Below, piece after piece: positions 6,052 through 22,319 of a stretch of DNA of 64,000 bases (position 1 is the first letter of the stretch; each line of letters begins with the position of its first letter). Origin of the DNA: Xylanibacter rarus (GTDB taxonomy: Bacteria; Bacteroidota; Bacteroidia; Bacteroidales; Bacteroidaceae); the NCBI RefSeq assembly GCF_001275135.1, contig NZ_LFQU01000019.1, positions 18,737 through 82,736 of the forward strand. Reading direction: 5' to 3'. A program made the translations under genes and the position numbers. The notes beneath the pieces are model-generated. The model had not been told where the DNA came from. It saw only the letters and a list, made by a program, of their open reading frames with translations, and did not search any database.

Positions 6052-6077
6052 TTTTTTTGTTGGCTAATGAATATAAG

Positions 6078-6125
6078 GACACAGCGCGCCTGCCGTTCAC
6101 ACGGCGACGCGCTGTTGTCTTTTTG
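6078..6125. terminator. Strong intrinsic terminator between convergent genes
   Basis: A two-part hairpin (GACACAGCGCG pairing with CGCGCTGTTGTC, inner GCCG/CGGC) is followed by TTTTT. It lies between the end of waaA and the convergent AraC-type gene. Confidence 0.8.
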
Positions 6126-6242
6126 TGTTTTTCTTTGTATGTGATGTAAGGTCTTTTATATTTTAGCCGCAGTCTTTCTGCTGCTTTGACCTGCACATTC
6201 TCCCGAGATATATGATGAAGTCAGGCGTGCAGAATCCGTTTT

Positions 6243-7163
6243 TCATCTTATAGGCCTTCTGTCAAACGAGTACATGTTTCTTCTGTATTCGCTTGGCGAC
6301 ATGCCTGTCTGCGACTTTACAAACTTGCCGAAGAATGATATGTTAGGAAAGTTCATCGTGTCCGAAATTTCCTTTATTGTCATGTTTGAGTATCTCAGTC
6401 TCTTTATTATCGCGTCAATGGTAAACTGGTGAATCCAGCTCAGCGCAGTTCTTCCGCTGACCTTTTTCGACAGCGACGAAAGATATTTGGGCGTTATGCA
6501 CAGTTTTTCGGCATACGCACTCACCGATCGCTCCATGCCTCCGTTCTCGGCCAGCAGCTCCATGAAGCGCCTGAACAGCAGGTCGCCCTGTCTTATCACC
6601 CCGTTGTATATAGTATTGTCTGTGCATGATGCTATAAGTTCGGCCAGTTCATAGAACGCAAACTGAAAGAGCGAGCGCATTATTTCCCTGTGAAACAGCC
6701 CGTCCATGCTTTCCAGCTTAAACTGCAACAGACTGTAGAATCTGTTCATCAGTATCTGTTTTTCGCTGTTGAGGCTTATCACGGGGTGATGAGATGCGTA
6801 TAATACGATGTTCCAAAAGTTTTTGCTGAGGTCAAGACTTCTGAAAAGAGCCTTGCTCGAGAGTCCGAGAATCTTCAGGTCGATGTCGTCTGATGTATTT
6901 ATGTCGGTTACGAGCGAGTTAGGCAGACATATCATTATATTGCCTTTTTCAAGTCTGTGGTAAGAGTCGTTGATGCAGCACTCAACTCTTCCTCTGGCAC
7001 AATATATAACTATCAGCAACTCAAGCTTACAGGGGTTGTCCGTGGGGATGTTCTTCAGGCTTTCCATTACCACGATGTCTCCGTCGTAATAGTCGGTCTG
7101 GGCTTCGTTGATTATTGATTCGATGTCTACTTTAAGTTCGTTATCTGTCATAAGTTGCGTCAA
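6243..7163 (-). CDS. AraC-family transcriptional regulator
   Basis: A 306-residue regulator with an N-terminal cupin-like sensing region (roughly 25-170) and a C-terminal AraC double helix-turn-helix (about 205-300). The second helix-turn-helix reads IKEISDTMNFPNISFFGKFV followed by QTGMSPSEYRR, the classic AraC signature. It is divergent from the RND efflux operon, with 195 bp between starts, so control of that operon is the natural inference. Its own promoter is probably the TATCTTTG box at 7181-7188, and the inverted repeat TATCTA-N4-TAGATA at 7212-7227 is a candidate operator. The inducer is unknown. Confidence 0.88.
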   Translation of the reverse strand: MTQLMTDNELKVDIESIINEAQTDYYDGDIVVMESLKNIPTDNPCKLELLIVIYCARGRVECCINDSYHRLEKGNIMICLPNSLVTDINTSDDIDLKILGLSSKALFRSLDLSKNFWNIVLYASHHPVISLNSEKQILMNRFYSLLQFKLESMDGLFHREIMRSLFQFAFYELAELIASCTDNTIYNGVIRQGDLLFRRFMELLAENGGMERSVSAYAEKLCITPKYLSSLSKKVSGRTALSWIHQFTIDAIIKRLRYSNMTIKEISDTMNFPNISFFGKFVKSQTGMSPSEYRRNMYSFDRRPIR

Positions 7164-7180
7164 AATTTGTTCTTCGGGTG

Positions 7181-7210
7181 CAAAGATAGGTATTAACTGA
7201 AACAGTGCAA
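7181..7210 (-). promoter_or_regulatory. Bacteroidetes promoter for the AraC-type gene
   Basis: On the minus strand, TATCTTTG (7188 to 7181) has a TTG (7210 to 7208) 19 bases upstream, matching the -33/-7 arrangement of Bacteroidetes sigma-A promoters. The start codon lies 18 bases downstream. Confidence 0.55.
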
Positions 7211-7211
7211 C

Positions 7212-7227
7212 TATCTAAAAGTAGATA
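7212..7227. promoter_or_regulatory. Candidate operator, 6-bp inverted repeat
   Basis: TATCTA (7212-7217), a four-base spacer and TAGATA (7222-7227) form a perfect inverted repeat just beyond the -33 element of the AraC-type gene, in the intergenic region shared with the efflux operon. Binding by this regulator is inference. Confidence 0.35.
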
Positions 7228-7320
7228 ATAGTGTTCCTAAATTCTTTGCAGTGTTCATATTCTCCACTTTTGGATTTTTTGTTTAGGAAATAAGAACACA
7301 AGAGTAAAAGCCTTTATCCG

Positions 7321-7328
7321 TAATTTTG
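7321..7328 (+). promoter_or_regulatory. Bacteroidetes -7 box (TAATTTTG) for the efflux operon
   Basis: TAATTTTG matches TAnnTTTG and lies 30 bases before the adaptor gene start. No clear -33 element is visible, which fits a promoter needing an activator. Confidence 0.5.
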
Positions 7329-7358
7329 CAAAAAAATTTTTGAACAAATACAAAGGAA

Positions 7359-8384
7359 ATGAACAAAGCAAGTTATTTAGCAATCCTTGCGCTGTCGGTG
7401 GTGCTTCTTGCATCATGCTCCGGCAAGGAAAAGGCGAGAGAGGTGATGCCGGTTAAGGTGAAGACAGAGAAGGCAGAGCCGGTACCCGTAAGTGGAAGTC
7501 AGGAATTTTCGGGCACGGTAGAGGCCTCAGACGATGCCGCTCTAAGTTTTGCTTCGGGCGGAACCGTAACAAAGGTATATGTGTCTGTGGGCGATATGGT
7601 AAAGAAAGGTGCCCTCATAGCCGAGGTTGATCCTGTCAGCGTGCGCAATGCCTACAATGCAGCCAAGGCCGTGAGAGAGCAGGCTGAGGATGCCTTCAGG
7701 CGCATGAAGCAGCTGCACGACGAAGGAAGCCTCACCGAGATGCAGTGGATAGAAGTGCAGAGCAAGCTGCGCCAGGCTGTGTCAACCGAGAACATTGCCC
7801 GCAAGAGTCTGACCGACTGCCGTCTTTATGCCCCATACAGCGGATACGTGGCCGAAAAACTTGTCGAGGCAGGGCAGAACGCCGCCCCCGGTATGCCCGT
7901 GATAAAGCTGGTAAGTATTAATAAGGTGAAGATAAAGATTGCCGTGCCCGAAGACGAGATGTCTGGCATAAAGGTTGGTCAGAGCGCCCTCGTGCGCGTG
8001 CCGGCACTGCAGAACATGAGCTGCAGCGGACGCGTGGCCGAGAAGGGTGTGGCTGCCGACCCGCTGTCGCGCTCTTATGAGGTGAAGATAGAAGTGTCTA
8101 ACTCTGGCCATAAACTGCTGCCGGGCATGGTGTGCGAGGCCTATGTGGGCGACAATCTTTCAGCCACGGCCGTGGCCCTGCCTGCCAATGTGATACTGAT
8201 AGACACCGACAACCGCACCTTTGTGTGGACTGCCGTAGGCGGAAAGGCTCACAAGACTTATGTGGAGGTGGGCGAGAGCGTAGGCAGCCGCGTGGTGATT
8301 AACAGCGGAATAAGCGCCGGCGACAAGGTTATTGTCGGCGGACAGCAGAAGGTCAGCGAGGGAACTAAAATAGCAGAACTATGA
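7359..8384 (+). CDS. RND efflux periplasmic adaptor (HlyD/AcrA type) lipoprotein
   Basis: A 341-residue membrane fusion protein. The N-terminus is a lipoprotein signal with lipobox LASC (Cys20). A barrel-sandwich/lipoyl half (about 45-80) with SFASGGTVTKVYVSVGDMVKKG precedes a helical hairpin (about 85-145), then the second lipoyl half (APYSGYVAEKLVEAGQNAAPG) and the beta-barrel and membrane-proximal domains. It would bridge the inner-membrane pump and the outer-membrane channel. Its stop overlaps the pump start by 4 bp (ATGA), so translation is coupled. It is slightly short for the family but all modules are visible. Confidence 0.92.
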   Translation: MNKASYLAILALSVVLLASCSGKEKAREVMPVKVKTEKAEPVPVSGSQEFSGTVEASDDAALSFASGGTVTKVYVSVGDMVKKGALIAEVDPVSVRNAYNAAKAVREQAEDAFRRMKQLHDEGSLTEMQWIEVQSKLRQAVSTENIARKSLTDCRLYAPYSGYVAEKLVEAGQNAAPGMPVIKLVSINKVKIKIAVPEDEMSGIKVGQSALVRVPALQNMSCSGRVAEKGVAADPLSRSYEVKIEVSNSGHKLLPGMVCEAYVGDNLSATAVALPANVILIDTDNRTFVWTAVGGKAHKTYVEVGESVGSRVVINSGISAGDKVIVGGQQKVSEGTKIAEL

Positions 8385-11300
8385 CAAAGAAGAAAAGAAA
8401 CATCGTAGAGTGGGCCATGCACTATCGCCAGATAGTGATAATGGTGGCATGCTGTCTCGTGGCCTTCGGCGTCTACGGTCTGGCTGACATGAACAAGAAC
8501 GAGTTTCCCGACTTCACGGTGCGCCAGGGTGTGGTTGTAGCCGTCTATCCGGGTGTGTCGGCACAGGACGTTGAAGAACAGCTCACAAAGCCGCTCGAAA
8601 ACTACATATTCTCATATAAGGAAGTAAAGAAAGAGAAGACCAAGTCGTACAGCCGCAACGGCATGGCCATAATACAGATTGAGCTTAACGACGATGTGTC
8701 GGGCACCGACAAGGACAACTTCTGGAGCAAGTTCAAGCACGGCATCAACACGTTCAAGGCTCAGCTGCCTTCAGGTGTGCTTGCGCTCATGGTTCAGGAC
8801 GACTTCGGCGACACGTCGGCCCTGCTCATAACCATGGAGAGCAAGGACAAGACCTACCGCGAGCTCAACGACTATATGGACGACCTGAAAGACAGGCTGC
8901 GCCGCATTGAGAGCATCGGCCGCATGAACGTATTGGGAATGCAGAAGGAGCAAATATCAATATATCTCGACAGCGACAAGATGTCCCACTACGGCATAGG
9001 CACCAACACCATTGCCGCCAGCCTCTTTGCCAAGGGCTTCGTTACCACTGCCGGCACGCAGAAGGGCAACGGCTACGACAGTCCGATACAGGTGGAGCGC
9101 TCGCTCAACGTGGTGGGCGATGTTGAGCAACTCGTTGTCTACTCCGATCCGTCAGGCAACGTGGTACGTCTGAAGGACGTTGCCAAGATAAGGCGCGAGT
9201 ATCCCCAGCCGTCGTCGTATGTAACCAACAACGGACAGAAGTGTCTTGTGCTGAGTGTGGAGATGAAGAAGGGCCGCAGCATAACGGCCATGGGAGCTGA
9301 CATAGAAAAGGTGATGGACGAGTTTAAGTCGACATTGCCGTCAGACGTAACCATCTTCACCATAACGGACCAGACCAAAGTGGTAAACGACAGCGTCGTA
9401 AACTTTCTCCGTGAACTTCTCATTGCCATAGCAGCCGTCGTAATAGTGATAATGCTGTTCTTGCCGATGCGCGTCGCTCTTGTGGCGGCGTCCACCATCC
9501 CTATCTCTATTTTCATCTCATTAGGTTTGTTCTATGCGTTCGGCATAGAGCTCAACACGGTTACGCTGGCTGCTCTTATTGTTACGCTTGGCATGATTGT
9601 CGACAACTCCATCGTGATAATCGACAGCTACATGGAGATGCTTGCCGAGGGCAAGTCGCGCTGGACGGCATCTATCAGCAGTGCCACCCATTTCTTCAAG
9701 TCGATATTTTCGGCCACGCTTGCCATAAGCATCACGTTCTTCCCGTTCCTGCTTACTATGAACGGTATGTATCACGACTTTCTGCTTTATTTCCCGTGGT
9801 CCATCACCATCGTGCTGCTCATATCGCTTCTGGTGGCAGAGCTTATAGTGCCGTTCCTTCAGTTCTACTTCATACGCAAGCCTGTTGGCACAGGGGGTAA
9901 GAAGAAGTTCTCGTTCCTCGACCTCGTTCAGCGCTATTACGACTGGCTCATAGGCCGCTGCTTTGCCCATCCTTACATCACCGTTTCTGTCGGCGTGGCA
10001 AGCATAGTGATTGGTTCAGTCATGGTGTCACAGCTGCCGCAGAAGATGATGCCTACGGCCGAGCGCAACCAGTTTGCCGTTGAGATTTACCTTCCCGACG
10101 GCACGTCGCTCAAGCGCACCGCTGCCGTTGCCGACAGTCTGGAGCATATTCTGCGCAAAGACAGCCGCGTGGTGTCGGTGGCATCGTTCAAGGGCACTTC
10201 GTCGCCGCGTTTCCATGCAGCCTATGCGCCGCAGTTTGGCGGATCTAACTATACACAGTTTATCGTCAATACGAAGAGTAACCACGATACTGAGACCCTG
10301 CTGAAAGACTACCGCATGAAGTATGCCACACACTTCCCCGACGCTTATGTGAGGTTTAAGCAGCTGTCTTATTCGCAGGATGCCAATCCTGTTGAGCTAA
10401 GGCTTACGGGCGATGACTGGCAGCAGCTTAAGTCGGTTGCCGACTCCGTAACGCGCCTGTGGCGCAACAATCCTTACCTTATGCTTGTGCGCAACGACGT
10501 CAATGAGCCTCTGCTGACCACCGACGTAGTGCTCGACGAGACCAAGGCCGGCCGCATGGGCGTAACCAACGCCATGGTTGAGGCCACGCTCGCCACGCGC
10601 TATAACAGCAGCGGCATAAGTCTCGGCACGATATGGGACGGCGACTATAACTACGGAGTATGCCTTAAAGGCACTAATGCCGACTCGTCTGCTATGAAAG
10701 ACGTTGCCGACGAGCTTATACCCGTCAGCGGCGGACTCTCCGTGGTGCCCTTGCGTCAGATAGCCGATATTAAGCCTGTATGGGCTGACGGACAGATAGC
10801 TCACCGCAACGGTCTGCGCACCATCACCGTGATGGCAGATGTTGTCAACGATAAGAATGTAATGGAGCTGACCACCGAACTGCAGAAAAACTTCGACACG
10901 TCGCGCCTTCCTTCTGGCGTTACGGCCGAGTGGGGCGGCGAGTATGCCGAGTCGCAGGAGTCGCTGCCGCAGATTCTGTCGGCTCTTGCCGTGGCTGTGG
11001 TCATCATCTTCTTCATTCTTGTATGGCACTTCCATCGCATCAACACCGCCGTCCTGCTGCTCGTGTCGCTTGCCATGACAATATTTGGTACGAGCTTGGG
11101 TGTTGTTATTTCAGGCGTAACGTTCAGTCTTACGTGCTTCCTCGGCATAATCAGCCTGATGGGTATATTGGTGCGCAACGCCATAATAATGTATGACTAT
11201 GCCGAAGAGCTGCGCGAAAAGGAGAAACTGACCGCCCACGAGGCCATCTTCCTTTCGGCCAAGCGTCGTATGCGTCCCATCTTCCTTACCTCGGCGGCTG

Positions 11301-11488
11301 CCTCAATGGGTGTCATCCCGATGATTCTCGGCGGCAGCGGTCTGTGGATGCCCATGGGTTCTGTTATATGTTACGGCACGCTGGTTACGATGCTGCTCAT
11401 ACTCACCGTGCTGCCTGTGGCCTACTGGCTGCTGATGAGCGGATCGACAAAGCGTCGTGAGGCAGGACTGAAACTTGAAAATGAATGA
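8381..11488 (+). CDS. RND-family efflux transporter permease
   Basis: A 1035-residue inner-membrane proton-driven pump of the AcrB/CzcA superfamily. It shows the N-terminal membrane helix followed by DMNKNEFPDFTVRQG and YPGVSAQDVEEQLTKPLE, the periplasmic porter domains, the TM3-4 region with LGMIVDNSIVIID carrying the proton-relay-type Asp, and the mirrored second half with GIISLMGILVRNAIIMYD. The substrate cannot be read from sequence; the lack of the metal-pump His/Met clusters and the AraC neighbour suggest an organic substrate, which is inference. It is the middle gene of a three-gene operon, with TolC 24 bp downstream. Confidence 0.93.
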   Translation: MTKKKRNIVEWAMHYRQIVIMVACCLVAFGVYGLADMNKNEFPDFTVRQGVVVAVYPGVSAQDVEEQLTKPLENYIFSYKEVKKEKTKSYSRNGMAIIQIELNDDVSGTDKDNFWSKFKHGINTFKAQLPSGVLALMVQDDFGDTSALLITMESKDKTYRELNDYMDDLKDRLRRIESIGRMNVLGMQKEQISIYLDSDKMSHYGIGTNTIAASLFAKGFVTTAGTQKGNGYDSPIQVERSLNVVGDVEQLVVYSDPSGNVVRLKDVAKIRREYPQPSSYVTNNGQKCLVLSVEMKKGRSITAMGADIEKVMDEFKSTLPSDVTIFTITDQTKVVNDSVVNFLRELLIAIAAVVIVIMLFLPMRVALVAASTIPISIFISLGLFYAFGIELNTVTLAALIVTLGMIVDNSIVIIDSYMEMLAEGKSRWTASISSATHFFKSIFSATLAISITFFPFLLTMNGMYHDFLLYFPWSITIVLLISLLVAELIVPFLQFYFIRKPVGTGGKKKFSFLDLVQRYYDWLIGRCFAHPYITVSVGVASIVIGSVMVSQLPQKMMPTAERNQFAVEIYLPDGTSLKRTAAVADSLEHILRKDSRVVSVASFKGTSSPRFHAAYAPQFGGSNYTQFIVNTKSNHDTETLLKDYRMKYATHFPDAYVRFKQLSYSQDANPVELRLTGDDWQQLKSVADSVTRLWRNNPYLMLVRNDVNEPLLTTDVVLDETKAGRMGVTNAMVEATLATRYNSSGISLGTIWDGDYNYGVCLKGTNADSSAMKDVADELIPVSGGLSVVPLRQIADIKPVWADGQIAHRNGLRTITVMADVVNDKNVMELTTELQKNFDTSRLPSGVTAEWGGEYAESQESLPQILSALAVAVVIIFFILVWHFHRINTAVLLLVSLAMTIFGTSLGVVISGVTFSLTCFLGIISLMGILVRNAIIMYDYAEELREKEKLTAHEAIFLSAKRRMRPIFLTSAAASMGVIPMILGGSGLWMPMGSVICYGTLVTMLLILTVLPVAYWLLMSGSTKRREAGLKLENE

Positions 11489-11512
11489 TAAAAGTAAAAA
11501 TAAGAAAGCGTT

Positions 11513-12808
11513 ATGAACAATGATATAAAACTAATCGGGCGCGCCCTCTGCGGTCTGCTTGCCGTTCTTAGTCCGGCAGCTGTGCAGGCTCAGACGGGCC
11601 TCACGCCCGAGATGTGCCGCAGCATGGCCGTGAGCCATAATGCCAAGATGGTCAACGCCAAGAATGCAGTGGCTGAGGCAGAGCAGACAAAGAAAGAGGC
11701 CTTCACCAACTATTTTCCCATTGTCAGTGCCACCGGCATGGGCTTCAATGCCGACAAGGGCATGGCCAAGATGCAGCTTCAGCCCGACATGGCCATGGAG
11801 ATGTGCAAAAACGGACTCATGGGAGGCGTTACGGCAGTTCAGCCCCTGTTTGCCGGCGGACAGATTGTCAACGGCAACAAGCTTGCCGGACTGGGCGTTG
11901 ACGTGAGCAAGCTGCAGCTCGAAAAGTCGGAAAACGACGTGGAACTTACAGCCGAACAGTATTTCTGGCAGCTCGTGGCTCTTAACGAGAAACTCAACAC
12001 GCTGCACGTGGCTGACACTATGCTTACGCGCATTTATCGTGATGTGAACAACTCTGTCAACGCCGGCGTGGCGCTGAAGAACGACCTGCTGCAGGTGCAG
12101 CTCGAGAAGAACGACAACATGAGCAACCGCGTAAGCCTTGAGGGCAACATCGCGGTGGCAAGAATGCTGCTCGCACAATATCTCGGACTCGAGGACAGCA
12201 GCTTTGTCCTCGTGTCAGACATCAGGGTGGGAGAGATGCCCGAGTCGCCCGCCTCGCTGAAGAGCGACCACCGGTCGGCACTGCAGCTTACGCCCGAATA
12301 CCGCCTGCTCGAAAAGAACGTTGAGGCTACGAGGCTGAAGCAGAAGCTCGACGTGGGCAAGAACATGCCTACGGTGAGCGTAGGCGCCGGATATATGTAT
12401 CACGACCTGCTCGACTGCAGCCGCTCGTTTGGCGTGGTGTTTGCCACGGTCAACGTGCCGCTGTCGGCATGGTGGGGCGGAAGCCACGCCATAAAGCGCC
12501 GCAAGATGGAGGTTGCCGACGCGCAGACCGAGCTTACGGACAAGTCGCAGTTGCTCGTCATCGGCATGCAGAAGGCATGGAACGACCTCAACACGGCATA
12601 CACTCAGCTGGGCATAGCCTGCAAGTCGATAGAGCAGGCTGCCGAAAACCTGAGGCTCAACAACAGCTACTATCGCGCCGGAACCGCCACCATGACCGAC
12701 CTGCTGAAGGCTCAGACGCAATACACGCAGAGCCGCGACCGCTTCGTTGAAACTTATTGCAATTATAAAATACTGACTCTTCAATATCTTCAGTTAACAG
12801 GTAGATAG
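11513..12808 (+). CDS. TolC-family outer membrane efflux channel
   Basis: A 431-residue outer-membrane factor completing the tripartite pump. A signal peptide (about 1-27, cut near VQAQ) is followed by the repeated helical-coil architecture of TolC: EMCRSMAVSHNAKMVNAKNAVAEAE in the first half, an equivalent LTPEYRLLEKNVEATRLKQK in the second, and a C-terminal stretch with SYYRAGTATMTDLLKAQTQY, the usual TolC/OprM signature. It starts 24 bp after the pump gene and ends just ahead of a hairpin terminator. Confidence 0.92.
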   Translation: MNNDIKLIGRALCGLLAVLSPAAVQAQTGLTPEMCRSMAVSHNAKMVNAKNAVAEAEQTKKEAFTNYFPIVSATGMGFNADKGMAKMQLQPDMAMEMCKNGLMGGVTAVQPLFAGGQIVNGNKLAGLGVDVSKLQLEKSENDVELTAEQYFWQLVALNEKLNTLHVADTMLTRIYRDVNNSVNAGVALKNDLLQVQLEKNDNMSNRVSLEGNIAVARMLLAQYLGLEDSSFVLVSDIRVGEMPESPASLKSDHRSALQLTPEYRLLEKNVEATRLKQKLDVGKNMPTVSVGAGYMYHDLLDCSRSFGVVFATVNVPLSAWWGGSHAIKRRKMEVADAQTELTDKSQLLVIGMQKAWNDLNTAYTQLGIACKSIEQAAENLRLNNSYYRAGTATMTDLLKAQTQYTQSRDRFVETYCNYKILTLQYLQLTGR

Positions 12809-12823
12809 TATTGTTTTGACTTG

Positions 12824-12857
12824 CGCCCGGAGAGAATTCTTCGGGCGTGTTTTTTTT
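12824..12857 (+). terminator. Intrinsic terminator of the efflux operon
   Basis: CGCCCG (12824-12829) pairs with CGGGCG (12842-12847) around an AGAATTCT inner palindrome and is followed by a run of T. It lies 16 bp after the TolC stop codon. Confidence 0.8.
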
Positions 12858-12944
12858 GTCTGTCTGTTGTGCATGTTTTACCGAAAATATTACCATTATC
12901 CCGTTTTTCGTGCTGCTGCCGTGCCGTAAGTGCGGCGAAAGATG

Positions 12945-12952
12945 TAACTTTG
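12945..12952 (+). promoter_or_regulatory. Bacteroidetes -7 box (TAACTTTG)
   Basis: TAACTTTG lies 18 bases before the ATG at 12970. This makes that ATG, rather than the in-frame ATG at 12847 inside the preceding terminator, the likely start of the metallophosphoesterase. Confidence 0.6.
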
Positions 12953-12969
12953 CAGCCATACTTAAAACA

Positions 12970-14067
12970 ATGAAAACAATGTGGTTTGTTCTTTTCTTCG
13001 TGCTGCCGTTCGTCGGCCTTGCCTATGTTCTGTGGCATGTGTGGTACCTCCTGCCGCTGTCGGCGGGCTGGCGCTGGGCCGTGGTGAGCGTTGGTCTGGC
13101 GGCTTTTCTCACCCTGTTTCTTAACTTTTCGCGTGCCATCGACGGCCTTCCCCTCAATCTGGCTTCGGCATGTTACGAGGTGGGCAACTCCTCCATATTC
13201 ATCCTTCTTTATCTCGTTATCGCCTTTCTGCTGCTCGACCTCGGGCGGCTTCTTCACATAGTGCCGCGCTCATGGCTCTATTCCAACTGCATCGTGTCCA
13301 CGGTGCTGTTTGCCGTCGTAGCGCTTGTGTTCATTGCCGGCAACATTCATTATAACAACAAGGTGCGTCATACCATACAACTCACCACCGACAAGCATCT
13401 CGGACGCCCCGTCAAGGTGGTCATGATGAGCGACCTTCATCTCGGCTATCACAATCGCCGCAAGGAGCTGGCGCGCTGGGTGGACATGATTAACGCCGAG
13501 CATGCCGACCTTATTCTTATTGCCGGCGACATGATAGACATCAGCATGCGTCCGCTCATCGAGGAGAACATGGCGTCAGAGCTGCGCCGTCTCAACGCTC
13601 CGGTGTATGCCTGTCTTGGCAATCATGAGTATTACAGCGGCGAGCCGCAGGCGCAGAAGTTCTTTGCCGACGCCGGCATAACGCTGCTGCGCGACAGCAT
13701 GGCATGCGTGGGGCAGCTGTGCATCATAGGCCGCGACGACCGCACCAATCCGCGCCGCCGCAGCGTGGCGGAGCTTATGCGCCGTGCCGACAAGAGCAGA
13801 TACACCATTCTGCTCGACCATCAGCCCTATCATCTCGACCGCTCCGAGCGTGCCGGCGTTGACTTTCAGCTTAGCGGCCACACCCATCGCGGGCAGCTAT
13901 GGCCCATATCGTGGATAACCGACCGCATCTACGAGTGCTCTTACGGACCGTGGCAGCGCGGCAACACGCAATATTATGTAAGTTCGGGCCTTGGCATCTG
14001 GGGCGGCAAGTTCCGCATAGGCACCTGTTCAGAGTATGTTGTGGCTACGATAACGGGGCGCAAATAG
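12970..14067 (+). CDS. Membrane-anchored metallophosphoesterase (YkuE-like)
   Basis: A 365-residue protein with four hydrophobic helices in the first 130 residues followed by a calcineurin-like phosphoesterase domain. The metal-binding motifs are all present: MSDLHLGYH, IAGDMID, CLGNHEYY, DHQPYH and SGHTHRGQLW. Related YkuE-type enzymes act on lipid or nucleotide phosphoesters at the membrane; the substrate here is unknown. The frame extends upstream to 12847, but that region overlaps the efflux terminator and a -7 box at 12945, so the start at 12970 is preferred. It is probably a single-gene transcript ending before the hairpin at 14194. Confidence 0.88.
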   Translation: MKTMWFVLFFVLPFVGLAYVLWHVWYLLPLSAGWRWAVVSVGLAAFLTLFLNFSRAIDGLPLNLASACYEVGNSSIFILLYLVIAFLLLDLGRLLHIVPRSWLYSNCIVSTVLFAVVALVFIAGNIHYNNKVRHTIQLTTDKHLGRPVKVVMMSDLHLGYHNRRKELARWVDMINAEHADLILIAGDMIDISMRPLIEENMASELRRLNAPVYACLGNHEYYSGEPQAQKFFADAGITLLRDSMACVGQLCIIGRDDRTNPRRRSVAELMRRADKSRYTILLDHQPYHLDRSERAGVDFQLSGHTHRGQLWPISWITDRIYECSYGPWQRGNTQYYVSSGLGIWGGKFRIGTCSEYVVATITGRK

Positions 14068-14193: not shown

Positions 14194-14230
14194 AGTGGCC
14201 GAGTTACGCATTGTAACTCGGCCACTTTTT
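14194..14230. terminator. Perfect 14-bp hairpin terminator
   Basis: AGTGGCCGAGTTAC (14194-14207) and GTAACTCGGCCACT (14213-14226) pair perfectly around a 5-base loop, followed by TTTT. It separates the metallophosphoesterase from the accessory cassette. Confidence 0.8.
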
Positions 14231-14460: not shown

Positions 14461-14468
14461 TATCTTTG
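14461..14468 (+). promoter_or_regulatory. Bacteroidetes -7 box (TATCTTTG), candidate promoter of the cassette
   Basis: TATCTTTG matches TAnnTTTG and lies 155 bases before the methyltransferase start, which would give a long untranslated leader. No well-spaced -33 TTTG was found. Confidence 0.45.
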
Positions 14469-14622
14469 CATACGTAACGGAATATGAACATTGCATTGTA
14501 AATAATCTAAGCAATAAACATTTGGACAACTTGAAATTGCTATGAAGTAAACATCTTTTTATACAAATTTCTGACAGAATGCAATTGTTTATTATTGTAG
14601 CATTATAATTAAAATAGACACA

Positions 14623-16380
14623 ATGGCAAAAAAGACAAAGTCGTTTTCACATATAGAGGCGCAGGATGCGCTCGAGAAGTTAAATGAAAGCAGACCTTCA
14701 GGAGAAGAGCTGATATATAGTCTTCTCCGTATATTTTGTGGTTACGGTGATGGCAATATAAAACGCATCCGCGACGGAGTGGGCAATAAGGCAAAAGACG
14801 GACGAACTGTGCTTATACCAAATCTGATAGCATATCGCCCGAAAGGTGAGCTTGACTTCTATGATGAGATAAAGGATATGCAGGCAGACAAAAAGATAAT
14901 AAAGCATACGCCTCGTCTTTTTGTAGTAAGCGACGGAAGTAAAATTGTGGCTCTCGACCCTAAAGAGCAAGATATATATGAAAACGAAGTAGGGTTGTTG
15001 TGGAAAGATTTTGAGTTTTTTTGCCCGCTTGCCGGTATAGAGAAAATAAGAAATGTTGAAGAAGCTGAAGCTGATATAAAGTCAGCGGAGCTTATGGCTA
15101 AGATATTTGATGAGATAAGGCGTCATAATGATATTAAGGATAAAGAAGAGATGCATAATCTTAATATCTTTATGTCGCGCCTCTTGTTCTGCTATTTTGC
15201 TGAAGACACGAACCTGTTTCCTGAACAGAATCTTTTTACAAATGCCATAATACAGTTTACTGCTGAAGACGGACACGACCTTGCAGAGTTTATCGACAGG
15301 GCTTTTTTTGCAATGTCTACCGACAATCCTGACGTACGTAATACTTTGCCTAAGCAGTTTTCTGTTTTTCCATACGTCAACGGCGGATTGTTTAAAGAAC
15401 GCATACCCATACCAGTGTTGAGCCGTCGTACACGTGTGCTTATGATTAAGTGTGGTGATTTTGATTGGAAAGACATTAATCCCGACATATTCGGCTCTAT
15501 GATTCAGGCTGTCGTAACTCCAGAGATGCGTGCCGGGCTGGGTATGCATTATACGTCTGTGCCTAACATTATGAAACTTATCTGTCCGTTGTTTCTCGAT
15601 GATTTGCGTGATGAATTTACTGTGGCGAAAGACACAAAAGACATAAAGCGTTTGCGCAGACTGTTGGCAAGGCTTGGAAAAATAAAGTTTTTCGATCCGG
15701 CTTGTGGTAGTGGCAACTTCCTTATCGTTACATATAAGCGTATTCGTGAACTTGAAATTGAGATATGGGAAGTTTTGCGCAAACTTGGAGAATCAGAACT
15801 GCCGATGTCTAATATAAGTCTGCAACAGTTTTATGGCATCGAGATTGACGATTTTGCATGCGATACGGCTACGCTTTCTCTTTGGTTAGCTGAACATCAG
15901 ATGAATAATAAGTTTTATTCTGCATTTGGTGTCCATGTTGACGCTTTACCTCTTCGTCCGAGCGGACACATTGTGTGCCAGAATGCGTGTCGTGTTGATT
16001 GGAATACAGTTTGTCCGCACACGCCAGATGAGGAAGTTTATGTTATGGGGAATCCTCCGTATTTAGGGAGTAGGCGACAAAACAAAGAACAGAAAACAGA
16101 CATGGAGATTTTATTCAAGGAAAATTTTGGTGAATTAGATTATATTTCATGTTGGTTTTTTGCAGGCTCAAATTATATTAAAAACACCAAAGGTAAATAT
16201 GCTTTTGTATCAACAAATTCAATATGCCAAGGATTACAGATGTCAATATTGTGGAAAAGGATTGTAGCCAATAATGAAGCTATCAATTTTGCATATACTT
16301 CATTCAAATGGTCTAATAATGCAAGATTGAATGCTGCTGTAACTGTTATTATTGTTGGTGTATGTAATGAAAAAATATAA
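14623..16380 (+). CDS. YeeA/MmeI-type DNA adenine methyltransferase, N-terminal part (frameshifted)
   Basis: A 585-residue fragment of a class I SAM-dependent DNA methyltransferase. The N-terminal region with KHTPRLFVVSDGSKIVALD (about 94-112) and FEFFCPLAGIEK (130-141) resembles B. subtilis YeeA (DnmA). A helical spacer follows, then SAM motif I DPACGSGNF (358-366) and catalytic motif IV NPPY (477-480), which indicate N6-adenine methylation. The frame stops at 16378-16380, but the missing C-terminal specificity part continues in another frame from 16371. Adding one A to the A6 run at 16370-16375 rejoins the halves into about 891 residues, near the YeeA length. No clear PD-(D/E)XK nuclease site is visible in the N-terminus, so cutting may fall to a partner protein. 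Confidence 0.85.
   Translation: MAKKTKSFSHIEAQDALEKLNESRPSGEELIYSLLRIFCGYGDGNIKRIRDGVGNKAKDGRTVLIPNLIAYRPKGELDFYDEIKDMQADKKIIKHTPRLFVVSDGSKIVALDPKEQDIYENEVGLLWKDFEFFCPLAGIEKIRNVEEAEADIKSAELMAKIFDEIRRHNDIKDKEEMHNLNIFMSRLLFCYFAEDTNLFPEQNLFTNAIIQFTAEDGHDLAEFIDRAFFAMSTDNPDVRNTLPKQFSVFPYVNGGLFKERIPIPVLSRRTRVLMIKCGDFDWKDINPDIFGSMIQAVVTPEMRAGLGMHYTSVPNIMKLICPLFLDDLRDEFTVAKDTKDIKRLRRLLARLGKIKFFDPACGSGNFLIVTYKRIRELEIEIWEVLRKLGESELPMSNISLQQFYGIEIDDFACDTATLSLWLAEHQMNNKFYSAFGVHVDALPLRPSGHIVCQNACRVDWNTVCPHTPDEEVYVMGNPPYLGSRRQNKEQKTDMEILFKENFGELDYISCWFFAGSNYIKNTKGKYAFVSTNSICQGLQMSILWKRIVANNEAINFAYTSFKWSNNARLNAAVTVIIVGVCNEKI
16370..16375 (+). other. Frameshift site in an A6 run
   Basis: In the first frame the codons read AAT GAA AAA ATA TAA. 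With one extra A they read AAT GAA AAA AAT ATA AAT AAG and continue without a stop into the specificity domain. This fits a one-base loss from an A7 run by sequencing error, slippage mutation or phase variation. Confidence 0.8.
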
Positions 16381-16502
16381 ATAAGAAAATAATTTATAAT
16401 AATGGACATTTAAAATATGTAAAAAATATTTCTCCTTTATTAATTGATGCACCAACAGTTTTTGTTGAAAGTGTTTCAAAACCTCTATGTAAAGTACCTG
16501 GT

Positions 16503-17297
16503 ATGAATTTTGGAAACATGCCTGCAGATGGGGGATTTTTATTGTTTTCATCGAATGAAAAAAATGATTTCATTCAGAAAGAACCTCAAAGTTCCGCTTA
16601 TTTTCGACAAATATATGGGTCTGATGAATTTATTAATGGGAGAGAACGCTGGTGTTTGTGGTTGTATGGCAAAAAAATAGATGATTTTGAACAAATGCCT
16701 TTAATAAAAGAACGTATAGATAATGTACGTAAAATCAGATTGAGATCTTCACGCCCACATTTAGCAGAAACTCCGCATCTTTTTGCTCAGATAACGCAAC
16801 CATTAGGTATTCCTTTTATTATAATTCCAAGTGTCTCTTCTGAACGACGTGAATACATTCCTATGGGGTATTTAGATAGTTCTAAGTTGGCAACTAATCT
16901 ATGTATGGTAATTGGTACTAAGGATATTTTTCTTTTTGCTGTTCTTACCAGTAAGATGCATATGGTATGGGTTAAGACTGTGGGGGGAAGATTAAAGACT
17001 GATTACCGTTATTCTGCACAGCTTTGTTATAATACTTTCCCTTTTCCTGCTATCAGCGAATCGCAGAAATCGGAGTTGGAAGAATTGGCACAAGAGGTTT
17101 TGGATATTCGTGACGAACATTTTGACATGACACTTGGCGAAATGTATAACCCAGAAACAATGCCTGACGATTTAAAAGATGTACACCGTCGGCTTGACCT
17201 CGCCGTTGAGCGTTGCTACCGCCTTGAACCTTTCACCTCGGACGAAGAACGCCTTGAATGTTTGTTTAATTTGTATGTTAAAATGACGAAGAAATGA
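16503..17297 (+). CDS. YeeA/MmeI-type DNA methyltransferase, C-terminal target-recognition part
   Basis: This frame is the continuation of the methyltransferase and has no independent start signal; the first ATG is at 16503, but the frame is open from 16371 and encodes homologous-looking protein (ISPLLIDAPTVFVESVSKPL) before it. It includes the target-recognition region (RERWCLWLYGKKIDDFEQMP, RIDNVRKIRLRSS, TQPLGIPFIIIPSVSSERR) and the conserved C-terminal helical part (YNTFPFPAISESQKSELEEL, LDLAVERCYRL), all typical of YeeA/MmeI-like enzymes. Alone it would not be functional. Its stop (TGA) is 29 bp before the start of the next gene. Confidence 0.8.
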   Translation: MNFGNMPADGGFLLFSSNEKNDFIQKEPQSSAYFRQIYGSDEFINGRERWCLWLYGKKIDDFEQMPLIKERIDNVRKIRLRSSRPHLAETPHLFAQITQPLGIPFIIIPSVSSERREYIPMGYLDSSKLATNLCMVIGTKDIFLFAVLTSKMHMVWVKTVGGRLKTDYRYSAQLCYNTFPFPAISESQKSELEELAQEVLDIRDEHFDMTLGEMYNPETMPDDLKDVHRRLDLAVERCYRLEPFTSDEERLECLFNLYVKMTKK

Positions 17298-17325
17298 AGA
17301 ATAAAGATACACTTATTTATATTGA

Positions 17326-18303
17326 TGACATTTTTTCGGAAGAAAAAAGAAAAGCAGTTTATGCATGTTCCATGATTGTTCAAATGAATCAATTGGTTCG
17401 CATGTATTTTCTCGATCACATATCTTAAAACCAATAAGTAAAGACCTTAATATATACCAATTTAATCAAAGGCCATTAATATTCCTTAGTAATAAGCATG
17501 ATGTCTTTTGTTATAAATTAGAACCTATTAGAAACGCTTTTATATTTAAAGGTTTTTGTCAAAAACATGATAATGATTTATTTAAATCTATTGAACCGCA
17601 CAATGGATTTGTCGATTGGTCACAGAAAAAGTCTCAATATTTATTAAGTTATCGAACAATTTGTCGGGAAATTTATGCTAATAATGTTGTTATAAATGTT
17701 ATTGATACAATTTCTAAAGATAATTATGCAAAACGGCAATCAATCAATCTTTTTAGTTTAGAAAAACAATTAATAACATTACAATATACAAGAGAAAATT
17801 TATTTTACTATAAATCTTTGTTGGAAAAAGATATTCTTAAGGAAGATTTTTCAAGTATAAGTTTTAAATATATTGAGTTACCTTTTCAATTTGACCTTTG
17901 TGTTTCTGCCCCAATCTACATTGATTATGGTAATGGTCTATGTTTTAATTCTGATTGTCAAGAATTAAATATTGTAAATATATTTCCTTATTATGGCAAA
18001 ACAATTATACTTTTTGGCTATTTACAAAAGTTTAATAATCAATGGATGGATGGTATCTTGCCTAAGTTCAAATCACCATATCCACATATTGTAAGTTCTG
18101 CTTTTGTAGATATACTTTATCGGGCAGAATTTAATGCTATGTCCCCATCTTTATATGATTCTCTTGATAAAGACTTATTAAATGAATTCTTTAGAACGTG
18201 GAAAAAGGAAGTAAATAATTTTTCTGATGATATGCAAGAGGTATCACATTTATTTTATTATACTTTAAATGAGCTTATGCCAAAATCATGGAAAGATTTA
18301 TAG
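17326..18303 (+). CDS. Unrecognised protein with Cys/His motif in the restriction-like cassette
   Basis: About 325 residues if begun at the ATG at 17326; the ATG at 17365 would cut off Cys13 of the motif C-x4-C-x6-SH (CMFHDCSNESIGSH). A second motif, GFCQKHDNDLF, lies about 60 residues on. The pattern of two Cys, a His, and C-x2-HD suggests a metal-binding or degenerate HNH-like module, which is inference. The remainder is an AT-rich mixed alpha/beta region with no membrane segments that I do not recognise. Codon use is markedly more AT-rich than the flanking genes. Placement between the methyltransferase and helicase genes on the same strand suggests a role in, or capture by, the cassette. 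Confidence 0.65.
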
Positions 18304-18388
18304 AAATATCAATATGAAAATTGAATATATTGTTTTTACGAGAGCACAATAGTATTTATTATCAAGATACAAAGATGATGATAATTTT

Positions 18389-18637
18389 ATGGATTTAGAA
18401 ATAAACGATAAAAATTTGTATCTGTTGTTACCGGGTAAAGTTAGTAGGATGGTGCAAATTTATTCGCATGAATATAATATTCCTATCATAGAGGCTTTGA
18501 AAAGATTTTATCTTTCAGATACTTACAAAAAATTAGCAGATGAAACAACAAAATTATGGCATTATGGTGCTGTTGCTTTGTATCAAGAATTTATTGACGA
18601 ACTAAAAAATAAAGAAAACGAAAATGGCAATAAATAA
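18389..18637 (+). CDS. Small helical protein of unknown function (82 aa)
   Basis: An 82-residue, mostly helical protein with no signal peptide. Its central part (IIEALKRFYLSDTYKKLADE followed by TTKLWHYG and ALYQEFIDEL) recalls small bacterial helical proteins sometimes found beside toxins, such as DUF3791-type proteins, but the match is weak and from memory. It overlaps the helicase start by 14 bp, so the two are likely translationally coupled and this looks like a true gene. Possible roles include an antitoxin-like or adaptor subunit; none is supported directly. Confidence 0.55.
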   Translation: MDLEINDKNLYLLLPGKVSRMVQIYSHEYNIPIIEALKRFYLSDTYKKLADETTKLWHYGAVALYQEFIDELKNKENENGNK

Positions 18638-20603
18638 TCTTGTAAACATCCAATATGCCCAAACTGGAGAATCGAGCGCAACCAACGAAATGGGAATGCG
18701 CGAGATGCAGGCAATGGTTTATGAACAACGTCAGCGTCAATATCTGTTGGTGAAAGCTCCGCCGGCATCAGGCAAGAGCCGCGCCATGATGTTTGTAGCA
18801 CTCGACAAGTTGGCTAATCAGGGAATAAGGAAAGTGATAGTGTCGGTACCTGAAAAGTCTATCGGACGTTCGTTTAAAGACACAAAACTGAAAGATTTTG
18901 GATTTTTTGAAGATTGGAAGGTAGCACCTTATTATAATTTGTGCGATTCGCTTGGTTCGGAAACTTCAAAGCGTAAGAAGGTGCATGAGTTTTTGTTGCC
19001 GGCAACATCGGCAAAGATTCTTGTTTGCACACACAGCACATTGCGTAACGCAATGAAAGACGTGCCTAACGAGCAGCTTAATGACGTATTCTTCGGTATA
19101 GACGAATTTCATCATACTTCTGCAGATGCGAACAATAATCTCGGAGAACTTATACGCAGACTGCTTAATGAAACGTCTGCACATGTATTGGCAATGACAG
19201 GAAGCTACTTCCGTGGCGACGCCATACCTGTAATGCGTCCTGAAGATGAAGAGAAATTCCAACCCTCTATCAACTATAATTATTACCAACAGTTGAGCGG
19301 ATACAAGTATCTGAAGAGCCTCGGCATTGGTTATCAGTTCTTTACAGGTAAATATATTACGGCAATTCCTGAAACGCTCGATACGACAAAGAAGACACTG
19401 ATACATATACCTAACGTAAATTCAAAGACTTCGTATGCGTTGAAGTATGATGAAGTTGCAGACATAATAAAATGTATTGGTGAAATAGTAGAAGAAGATT
19501 ATGAACACCATATTTACCATGTGCGAACTTCAGACGGACGCATTCTTAAAGTCGGCGACCTTGTGGAAGATGAACAGTCGCGTAGGGATGCATTGCAGGC
19601 TTATCTGCAACGTATGAATTCACGTGACGCTCTTGACATACTTATTGCTCTTGGAACAGCCAAAGAAGGTTTCGACTGGGCATGGTGCGAGTGTTGTATA
19701 ACTATCGGCATACGGTCTTCTTTAACTGAAATAGTTCAGATTATTGGACGTTGCACCCGCGACTGTGAAGGAAAGACGCATGCACAGTTTATTAATCTGA
19801 TACCTTGCCCGGACGCTGCACAGGATGATGTTTCTATGGCAGTAAACGATTTTCTTAAAGCTATTTCTGCTTCATTGCTTATGGAACAGGTGATGGCTCC
19901 ACGCTGGACATTCAAGACGAAACGTGACGACGAGGATGAAGATAAAGAGGATAACAAAATAGGCGGTAAAAACAACAAACACACGATTGAAGTAAAAGGT
20001 CTGCCCGTTCTTTCAGAAAGGGCACAAGCAATATTGGACAACGACCTTGACACTTTGATTGCATCAGCACTTTCAGATAAGAAAATCCGTGACGCAATAA
20101 TCGGTACTGAAAAGAATGAAATGATAACACAGGTGTATTTCCCTAAATTAATATCCGAGAAATATAAGTTTCTGAATCAAGAGGAAGCTGAGGACCTGTC
20201 TAAATATGCAGTTTTGACGATTGCGACACAGGGAGAGGATATAAAGACTGATGACAGTGGAAATAAGTTTATAAGACTTGCTAACCGTTTTGTTAATCTG
20301 GATGATTTGTCTATAAATCTTATTGATTCGATAAATCCGTTCCAGCGTGCATACGAAATTCTGTCAAGGTCATTGACTCCTGAGGTTCTTCGCACGATAC
20401 AATATGAGATTGAATCAACCCGTGAAGATATGACAAAAGAAGAAGCTGTAATTCTGTTTAAAAAGTATTTGCCTAAATGGCGTGAAGAACATGACGGAAA
20501 AGTGCCGACAATAAATGAAGCAGACGCTAACGGCAGAAGAATAGCTTTGGCCATTGAATACATACGTAAACTTAAACAGCAGTCACTTGCAAATAAAAGA
20601 TGA
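18624..20603 (+). CDS. SF2 DEAD/DEAH-type helicase (YeeB-like)
   Basis: A 659-residue superfamily 2 helicase. Walker A is APPASGKSRA (45-54), motif II is DEFH (160-163), motif III is MTGS (191-194), and motif VI is QIIGRCTRD with TAKEGFDWAWC just before it (about 350-385). The C-terminal 250 residues are helical and contain an acidic stretch (DDEDEDKEDN). In B. subtilis yeeB, a helicase gene, follows the methyltransferase yeeA, and the same pairing holds here apart from two extra genes. A role in ATP-driven DNA translocation or remodelling is inferred. Its stop overlaps the GIY-YIG gene start by 4 bp. Confidence 0.85.
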   Translation: MAINNLVNIQYAQTGESSATNEMGMREMQAMVYEQRQRQYLLVKAPPASGKSRAMMFVALDKLANQGIRKVIVSVPEKSIGRSFKDTKLKDFGFFEDWKVAPYYNLCDSLGSETSKRKKVHEFLLPATSAKILVCTHSTLRNAMKDVPNEQLNDVFFGIDEFHHTSADANNNLGELIRRLLNETSAHVLAMTGSYFRGDAIPVMRPEDEEKFQPSINYNYYQQLSGYKYLKSLGIGYQFFTGKYITAIPETLDTTKKTLIHIPNVNSKTSYALKYDEVADIIKCIGEIVEEDYEHHIYHVRTSDGRILKVGDLVEDEQSRRDALQAYLQRMNSRDALDILIALGTAKEGFDWAWCECCITIGIRSSLTEIVQIIGRCTRDCEGKTHAQFINLIPCPDAAQDDVSMAVNDFLKAISASLLMEQVMAPRWTFKTKRDDEDEDKEDNKIGGKNNKHTIEVKGLPVLSERAQAILDNDLDTLIASALSDKKIRDAIIGTEKNEMITQVYFPKLISEKYKFLNQEEAEDLSKYAVLTIATQGEDIKTDDSGNKFIRLANRFVNLDDLSINLIDSINPFQRAYEILSRSLTPEVLRTIQYEIESTREDMTKEEAVILFKKYLPKWREEHDGKVPTINEADANGRRIALAIEYIRKLKQQSLANKR

Positions 20604-21793
20604 TAAACTGGGACGAAGAACTTGAACAAATATTTGAAGATCCACTTTTTGCTGATGTTACGGCTCCAAGAAAGAAAGTGACTTCAAGCGACCGGCTTAT
20701 TGCCGGATTTCAGAAAATATTAGAGTTTGTTGAAACAAACAACCGATTACCACAGAATTGTGATAATCGTGAGGAAAGAACACTATATAATCAGCTTAAA
20801 GGTATTCTTAAAGACCCTAAGAAGGTAGAGAAATGTAAGCCTTACGATACCGCCAATATATTAAGCGAACGGAACGAAGATGAAATTTCTGATTCGGAAA
20901 AGAACTGTAAAAGTGAAACGGAACTTCTTGACGAAATTTTTAATGACCCAATATTTGATGGCATAAGTTCTGATGATAATTCTTTGTTCGAACTTCCGGA
21001 TTATATGAAAAAGCGTCTTGAAGAGCGTAAGGAAGCTGACTATGTTGCTCAAAGGGTGAAATGTGAAGATTTTGATAAGTTTGAGGCTGGATTTAAAGAA
21101 GTTCATGCTGGTCTGAAATCAGGTAAATATAGATTGATTAAATTCAAGGAAGCTCATATTGCACAAGGGAGATACTTCTTGGAAGATGGAATATTGGTTT
21201 ATATTGCAGGGCTTGATCAAATAGAAAAGAATAGACACGGAAGGAAAGATAGCCGTACCCGATGTGTATATGAAAATGGAATGGAATCGGGAATTTACAT
21301 GCAGACCTTATGTAAAAATCTTTATAGTACAGGCTATACAATACAAAACGTTTCGGATGTTGAAGAAGATTATCTGGAAAAGAAATTTTCAATAAATTCA
21401 AATGATGTGGAAAGTGGTATAATCTATGTGCTGCGTTCTTTGTCAAAAGATCCTGAAATAGCCTCAATAAAGAATCTTTATAAGATTGGTTTTACTACGA
21501 CGACAGTAGATGCACGCATAGCCAATGCAAAGAATGAGCCGACATATCTTTGTGCAGACGTTGAAGTTGTTGAGATATGGAGAGTTTATAATGTAAAAAG
21601 TTCAGTCTTTGAAGCACTTATACATAAACTCTTTGATAATGTTCAGTTGCAGGTCGTTGTTGATGGGAAAAAGCCTAAAGAATGGTTTGTCGTTCCGTTC
21701 AATGTTATTGAACAAGCGGTTAAATATATTATTAGTGGAGTCCCTATTGCATACGATGAAACTGTGCAGCAAATAGTTGTTTTAAAAGAATAA
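20600..21793 (+). CDS. GIY-YIG (T5orf172/MUG113-type) nuclease, YeeC-like
   Basis: A 397-residue protein with a C-terminal GIY-YIG domain: GIIYVL (273-278), YKIG (294-297), Arg306, candidate catalytic Glu338 and a conserved EW pair (361-362). The N-terminal 270 residues contain a short repeated motif (LEQIFEDPLFADV at 8-20 and LDEIFNDPIFDGI at 110-122), suggesting an internal duplication, then a helical linker. It is the likely nuclease of the cassette, matching YeeC of B. subtilis in domain and position. The start overlaps the helicase stop (ATGA). It is the last gene before a 23-bp inverted repeat. Confidence 0.82.
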   Translation: MINWDEELEQIFEDPLFADVTAPRKKVTSSDRLIAGFQKILEFVETNNRLPQNCDNREERTLYNQLKGILKDPKKVEKCKPYDTANILSERNEDEISDSEKNCKSETELLDEIFNDPIFDGISSDDNSLFELPDYMKKRLEERKEADYVAQRVKCEDFDKFEAGFKEVHAGLKSGKYRLIKFKEAHIAQGRYFLEDGILVYIAGLDQIEKNRHGRKDSRTRCVYENGMESGIYMQTLCKNLYSTGYTIQNVSDVEEDYLEKKFSINSNDVESGIIYVLRSLSKDPEIASIKNLYKIGFTTTTVDARIANAKNEPTYLCADVEVVEIWRVYNVKSSVFEALIHKLFDNVQLQVVVDGKKPKEWFVVPFNVIEQAVKYIISGVPIAYDETVQQIVVLKE

Positions 21794-21813
21794 AGAAAAG
21801 TGATATAATAATA

Positions 21814-21911
21814 AAGACTAAAACTTTCTTGTTGACCATAATCCATTGCCGTTACGCAATATGCGGTGCGCACGACATTCTTATTATTGTCAACAAAAAA
21901 GTTTTAGTCTT
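21814..21911. repeat. Long-arm inverted repeat at the right edge of the cassette
   Basis: Arms of 23 bp (21814-21836 and 21889-21911) match with one mismatch around a 52-base spacer. It lies between the GIY-YIG gene and a convergent thioesterase gene, so it could end transcription from both sides, although the spacer is long for an intrinsic terminator. A small mobile element is the alternative. Confidence 0.7.
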
Positions 21912-21947
21912 GTTGTTTTGTTATTTATGCCTTTCGGCTGTAGCTTC

Positions 21948-22319
21948 TTACAGCTTACTCATAAACTTCTCGCGGTCAACGATGAAGCGCAGGTGAGTGC
22001 CTTCGCCTATCACGGCGTCGCCCTGCATGGCTTTGACTGTGAAATACAGTTTACGGCCGTCTACCTTTGTCAGCGTGGCTTCTGCCTTGACCTCAGCTCC
22101 TAATGGCGTAGGCTTCAGGTGTGATGACTCTATGTGTCCGCCTACGGTGGTGCTTCCTTCTGGCAGTTCGGGGGCAACGGCCAACATTGCGGCGTTCTCC
22201 ATCAGCGCCATCATGGCCGGCGTAGCCAACACGGGCATGTCGCCCGAACCCATGGCCTTGGCGGTGAGAGCTTCGGTCACCGTCAGGCTGCTTGTGTGTG
22301 TAAGTCCTGTTTCCAGCAT
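21948..22319 (-). CDS. Hotdog-fold thioesterase (FlK-like)
   Basis: A 123-residue single hotdog domain. The segment GSGDMPVLATPAMMALMENAA (11 residues in) matches the fluoroacetyl-CoA thioesterase-like family, with the active-site-type Thr and Glu, and VGGHIESSHLKPTP holding the conserved His. It would hydrolyse a small acyl-CoA; the substrate is unknown. The frame can be extended nine codons to a TTG, but the ATG at 22317-22319 is the natural start. It is the only minus-strand gene between the cassette and the carbonic anhydrase. Confidence 0.85.
   Translation of the reverse strand: MLETGLTHTSSLTVTEALTAKAMGSGDMPVLATPAMMALMENAAMLAVAPELPEGSTTVGGHIESSHLKPTPLGAEVKAEATLTKVDGRKLYFTVKAMQGDAVIGEGTHLRFIVDREKFMSKL

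Follow-up and report, generated by a model that had tools for sequence, protein, structure and literature searches.

What is the gene cassette at positions 14623-21793 of a 64,000-nucleotide stretch of the Xylanibacter rarus genome (contig NZ_LFQU01000019.1; the whole stretch is called the window)? A reading made from the sequence alone had seen a YeeABC-like methyltransferase, helicase and GIY-YIG nuclease with two extra genes, for a Cys/His-motif protein and an 82-amino-acid (82-aa) protein, and had proposed an undescribed variant of a defence system. The cassette is likely to be a Type I-like restriction-modification (R-M) system, namely a YeeABC operon gained by horizontal transfer, with a cargo slot at the YeeA-YeeB junction, and this copy is probably off. 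The Cys/His and 82-aa genes look like exchangeable cargo, not subunits. All genes of the whole cassette lie on the + strand. Gene order, strand and coordinates of the five genes were confirmed by the open reading frame (ORF) map, as was the overlap of the last three (18389-18637, 18624-20603 and 20600-21793). Two frame breaks had been overlooked, however, and in the sequence as given they disrupt two of the five genes. The features are as follows.

14623..16380, + strand: MmeI-like N6-methyladenine (m6A) methyltransferase, N-terminal and catalytic part (YeeA/DnmA type), 585 aa (Pfam, PADLOC, PDB)
16383..17297, + strand: recognition and C-terminal domains of the methyltransferase, in another frame (Pfam)
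17298..18623, + strand: cargo slot, the methyltransferase-helicase interval (junction survey)
17294..17364, + strand: probably the original N-terminal part of the Cys/His gene, not in frame with the remainder (comparison with loci L040-L043 and L150)
17365..18303, + strand: Cys/His zinc-motif protein of an unnamed family, 312 aa (alignment A4, 10 sequences)
18389..18637, + strand: 82-aa protein, PDC-M13C, orphan third gene of a DUF3791-DUF3990-M13C module (PADLOC)
18624..20603, + strand: SF2 helicase/translocase, YeeB type, 659 aa (Pfam and motifs)
20600..21793, + strand: GIY-YIG (T5orf172) nuclease, YeeC type, 397 aa (Pfam and motif residues)

The three core genes were identified by searches of family collections and PDB sequences (E-values in brackets). 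The first methyltransferase ORF matched Pfam MmeI_hel (6.1e-21) and MmeI_Mtase (7.9e-99), PADLOC REase_MTase_IIG (2.6e-177) and, in the PDB, MmeI (5hr4, 7.9e-98, spanning MmeI 105-587). The match to MmeI_N was confined to positions 93-180 of 181 and the PDB match begins at MmeI 105, in agreement with the earlier statement that the methyltransferase shows no clear nuclease site. The second-frame stretch (16383-17297) matched MmeI_TRD (4.2e-77) and MmeI_C (4.9e-25). Methyltransferase, spacer, target recognition and C-terminal domains are shared with MmeI (Type IIL), whereas the N-terminal nuclease part of MmeI is unmatched here and a helicase and a separate nuclease lie downstream. The helicase matched Pfam DEAD (2.1e-09) and ResIII (3.8e-09), with no match among PDB sequences at 0.1; its APPASGKS, DEFHH and QIIGRCTR segments (Walker A, DExH-like and motif VI) are invariant across 12 aligned proteins. 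The nuclease matched Pfam T5orf172 (8.9e-14), and the GIY, YIG-type, Arg and Glu positions are preserved in it: G273, Y276, K295, G297, R306, E338 and H342 each occur in at least 97% of 79 sequences, and I275 in 90%. Nothing exceeded the NCBIfam cut-offs for any piece of the cassette. A search of the cassette at E 1 found none of Methylase_S, HSDR_N and HsdM_N, the marks of the Type I R-M subunits HsdM, HsdS and HsdR.

A nuclease-less MmeI-like methyltransferase was therefore found together with an SF2 helicase that is directly followed by a T5orf172/GIY-YIG protein. This is the composition given for DnmA in the available text of PMC7261158 and PMC9973331, where an MmeI homologue without the nuclease motif stands beside a helicase and a T5orf172 protein and a Type I-like system is proposed for YeeABC. 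The identity put forward by the sequence-only reading holds: order, domains and the absent MmeI nuclease agree with the published dnmA-yeeB-yeeC, compared by description. The nuclease-less MmeI-like methyltransferase, the SF2 helicase, the C-terminal T5orf172 protein and their order are the same in Bacillus subtilis dnmA(yeeA)-yeeB-yeeC as described in the text available. The differences are that no genes are described there between yeeA and yeeB, while the window has two passengers and a methyltransferase in two frames.

The junction between methyltransferase and helicase was surveyed in the best 80 of 558 confirmed helicase loci from a GTDB genome scan. The nuclease lies directly 3' of the helicase in 80/80 loci, with an estimated gap of at most 45 bp (the value of -529 for L108 is an extrapolation), so the pairing is more than chance. 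The junction was measurable in 71 loci; of the other nine, seven were cut by a contig end, one (L059) had no methyltransferase found and in one (L079) the end failed the position filter. Gaps fell into two groups, at most 60 bp in 30 loci and more than 200 bp in 41, with none of 61-200 bp. The filled junctions hold inserts of 466 to 4352 bp. The filled or empty state changed at least 15 times on the helicase tree (72 rows). Cargo is near-identical in L065, L068 and L069, which are hence not independent.

All filled GTDB slots but one (40 of 41; L099 yielded none) contributed ORFs of at least 70 aa to a scan of slot contents. Of 67 ORFs, 65 came from these slots and two from the window; one ORF may match several families, and some short ORFs may be spurious. 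Counts among the best 25 of 62 families were RhuM 8, SLFN_AlbA_2 8, HATPase_c_4 7, Fic 5, DUF6169 3, two each for YhcG_C, DUF1016_N, Kinase-PolyVal, 23S_rRNA_IVP and AAA_21, and one each for DUF3990, DUF3791, PDDEXK_3, Abi_C, DUF5615, DUF433 and others. In the PADLOC tally of the slots, the candidate families PDC-S23 (11 members) and PDC-S05 (up to 9) stand at the top. AbiJ_NTD4 was found in the slot of the nearest relative (L048, Mediterranea massiliensis) and DUF2971 in that of L052. Five of seven inspected slot ORFs without an obvious family (L050, L055, L056, L094 and L112) had no Pfam match. Unrelated genes that differ among loci are inserted between the core genes of this defence operon.

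The 82-aa protein matched PADLOC PDC-M13C (2.3e-29). Searching 294 other genomes of the order revealed relatives in 12. Eight of these 12 places were fetched, and in all eight a DUF3791-DUF3990-M13C series ends with the relative; three of the eight matches contain stops within the aligned stretch. Two close relatives, L031 and L049, likewise have the full series in their slots. L048 and L040 carry DUF3791 and M13C without DUF3990, a family which we take to be ADP-ribosyltransferase-like. The cassette shares M13C with the PADLOC PDC-M13 module and differs in the other two genes: M13C stands alone in 14501-22000 of the window, where neither DUF3791 nor DUF3990 was found. Most simply, the 82-aa gene is a remnant of a toxin-like module.

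The Cys/His protein carries a motif of approximately Cx4C..SHxxQ..FCxxHDxxxFxxIE..LxxxR (alignment A4). Its ORF starts at 17365, right after the first Cys of the C-x4-C motif that is kept in relatives; the upstream part has a possible start at 17294, overlapping the methyltransferase stop, in another frame. No Pfam, PADLOC or NCBIfam family was matched at E 1. The best matches reached only 0.2 among PDB sequences and 0.038 in PHROGs; there was no match in phage records and none was confirmed in viral contigs. Plasmid records gave four weak matches, two of them named SEC-C domain proteins, and the one SEC-C domain match inspected lies among ordinary genes. A weak match in L007 (5.6e-4) was rejected as a relative, since it falls inside a 399-aa ORF read by eye as a glycosyltransferase. 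In L155 (2909-13919) a type I R-M operon has a Cys/His relative in its hsdS-hsdR interval, together with a 5'-nucleotidase, AlbA_2 and two small ORFs.

GC content is 0.30-0.42 within the cassette and 0.51-0.58 outside it, which fits horizontal acquisition. The minimum of 0.30 is reached at 17000-17999, where most of the Cys/His gene falls, and the middle part is perhaps of separate origin. Among 72,556 plasmid records, 261 were matched by the helicase at 1e-30, and 149 of the matches cover at least 80% of its length. On a 7.7 kb Pediococcus plasmid (L181, NZ_CP148041.1) the methyltransferase, helicase and GIY-YIG genes are the only ones listed, with no replication gene, in a gene table that is incomplete. 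A clean empty site was not seen beside the metallophosphatase gene in seven relatives (8.5-9 kb each). YeeABC was absent from all seven of these regions, but their downstream flank is likewise unconserved.

A single integrated defence system of all five genes, with the Cys/His and 82-aa proteins as subunits or regulators, deserves hardly any credence and was rejected. In its favour, the genes share a strand, the helicase gene overlaps both the 82-aa gene and the nuclease gene, and an 82-aa gene lies at the equivalent position in L031, L048 and L049. However, the Cys/His family was found in none of the 80 GTDB helicase loci (tblastn; profile search in six frames) and the 82-aa gene in the junction of only two (L048 and L049; tblastn). 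The five-gene order, expected to recur if the proposed variant existed, was not seen among the 80. The junction is empty in 30 of 71 loci, the 82-aa gene belongs elsewhere to another module, and the Cys/His part has a GC content near 0.30, compared with 0.41-0.42 for parts of the core.

The frame breaks allow three further explanations. Frame 1 of the methyltransferase stops at 16380, ahead of the recognition domain, and the first ATG of the second frame (16503) sits within that domain; the enzyme is not in one open frame in the window (a functional need, not a mark of kinship). A single frame was found in 68 of the 70 GTDB loci in which both parts were detected, the exceptions being L050 and L083. 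L050 is one of the three closest relatives on the helicase tree; the other two, L048 and L049, are the closest and have the methyltransferase in one frame. Six-A runs lie at or near both breaks, in the methyltransferase and in the Cys/His gene. With the single-frame comparators and the open helicase and nuclease genes, these runs suggest an intact, active locus in which both breaks are assembly errors. This is a real if unlikely prospect: 18 other runs of at least six A/T lie within long ORFs of the window, where coding density is 86%, and the methyltransferase of L050 is also broken, elsewhere. The run count took in open ORFs only and is biased to that extent; it mildly favours a sound assembly. 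There is a slight chance that the break is functional, either because the A run is phase-variable or because the two pieces work as separate subunits in the manner of HsdM and HsdS. The break falls at a domain boundary, and in L050 it falls early in the next domain, the recognition domain. On the other side, the second piece has its ATG within the recognition domain, the break sites of the window and L050 differ, and six is a short run length for phase variation. It is improbable that the cassette is a decaying relic last selected for methylation and not for restriction, as suggested for B. subtilis DnmA. Such a history is argued for B. subtilis in the available text of PMC9973331, and broken genes are present in the window; yet the broken core gene here is the methyltransferase, and both the helicase and the nuclease genes are open and have their motif residues conserved.

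A horizontally acquired YeeABC operon with cargo, probably switched off in this copy, remains the favoured reading. In such an operon YeeA/DnmA would recognise and methylate its target and so give protection; on an unmethylated target the YeeB helicase would translocate on the DNA, with cutting by the YeeC GIY-YIG protein. Cutting may take place during helicase movement, as the sequence-only reading had suggested; the motif residues of both proteins are conserved. Three loci (the window, L050 and L083) combine a broken methyltransferase with open helicase and nuclease genes, and a B. subtilis dnmA deletion has no growth defect in the text available of PMC7261158. From these we infer that YeeA is required for restriction. 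Without the recognition domain, methylation and targeting would be lost together, and this copy is therefore probably off, barring an assembly error at the break or some bridging of it during expression. The joint loss would also explain why intact YeeB-YeeC is tolerated. The YeeA-YeeB junction would be a recurrent slot for unrelated defence or toxin-like genes, comparable to the hsdS-hsdR interval. The cargo is predicted to be probably co-expressed with the operon, and would most likely act in defence independently or as a back-up.

Several points weigh against this reading. In B. subtilis, yeeABC did not protect from three phages and left transformation unaffected, according to the text available of PMC9973331 and PMC7261158; a Vibrio crassostreae deletion led to greater sensitivity to some phages, as reported in PMC9973331. 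The frame breaks may be assembly errors. The 80 loci are the best matches to a Bacteroidota query and are a biased sample. Slot state is clustered on the tree (0/200 label shuffles were as low as 15 changes; mean 23.3), and 33 of 41 filled slots are in Bacteroidota and one in Pseudomonadota, against 14 and 10 of 30 tight ones; clustering and uneven phyla indicate that slot state is partly inherited. Three of 12 Cys/His relatives lie among ordinary genes and one at a contig end.

A wider view is offered tentatively, at less than even chances. The YeeA-YeeB junction may be a general docking slot, commonest in Bacteroidota and present in other phyla too, for exchangeable back-up effectors guarding R-M, and the Cys/His protein may belong to an unnamed effector family shared by YeeABC, type I R-M, TIR and other defence loci. 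Such effectors would act once the core is blocked, as PrrC, which reportedly guards EcoprrI.

Embedding as such is already known for type I R-M and Hma; the variable slot inside YeeABC would be a new variety of it. Campylobacter rlo genes are said to be embedded in type I R-M operons. In the text available of PMC11411939 and PMC12255303, TgvAB lies inside a type I R-M operon of Vibrio cholerae VPI-2 (Vibrio pathogenicity island 2) and DarTG2 between hsdS and hsdR of enteropathogenic Escherichia coli (EPEC); BREX loci also house auxiliary nucleases, according to the part available of PMC12839542. These type I operons resemble the cassette in holding unrelated defence genes, as does L155 with its Cys/His relative and AlbA_2, and differ in that the host operon here is YeeABC, without HsdS or HsdR. 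No report of embedding within YeeABC, or of a name for the passengers, was found in the literature searched. The slot, filled in 41 of the 71 sampled loci, is a defined place to seek new defence genes in a poorly understood R-M family, with the Cys/His family as one unnamed candidate. Differences in cargo and intactness are a possible reason why YeeABC protected in one host and not in another.

Among the loci without a measured junction, L059 (Bacteroides ihuae, 5056-13000) has the helicase and GIY-YIG pair without an MmeI-like methyltransferase found within 22 kb; SIR2_2, HerA (DUF87) and SLFN_AlbA_2 genes lie upstream instead. Upstream of the cassette in the window, one further feature was listed.

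14461..14468, + strand: promoter-like TATCTTTG (candidate; pattern match only)

It is called promoter-like from its agreement with TAnnTTTG, presumably the -7 element of Bacteroides. Two terminator-like structures flank the cassette: a stem followed by a T run 5' of the methyltransferase (arms 14194-14207 and 14213-14226), and an inverted repeat 3' of the nuclease gene (arms 21816-21836 and 21889-21909).

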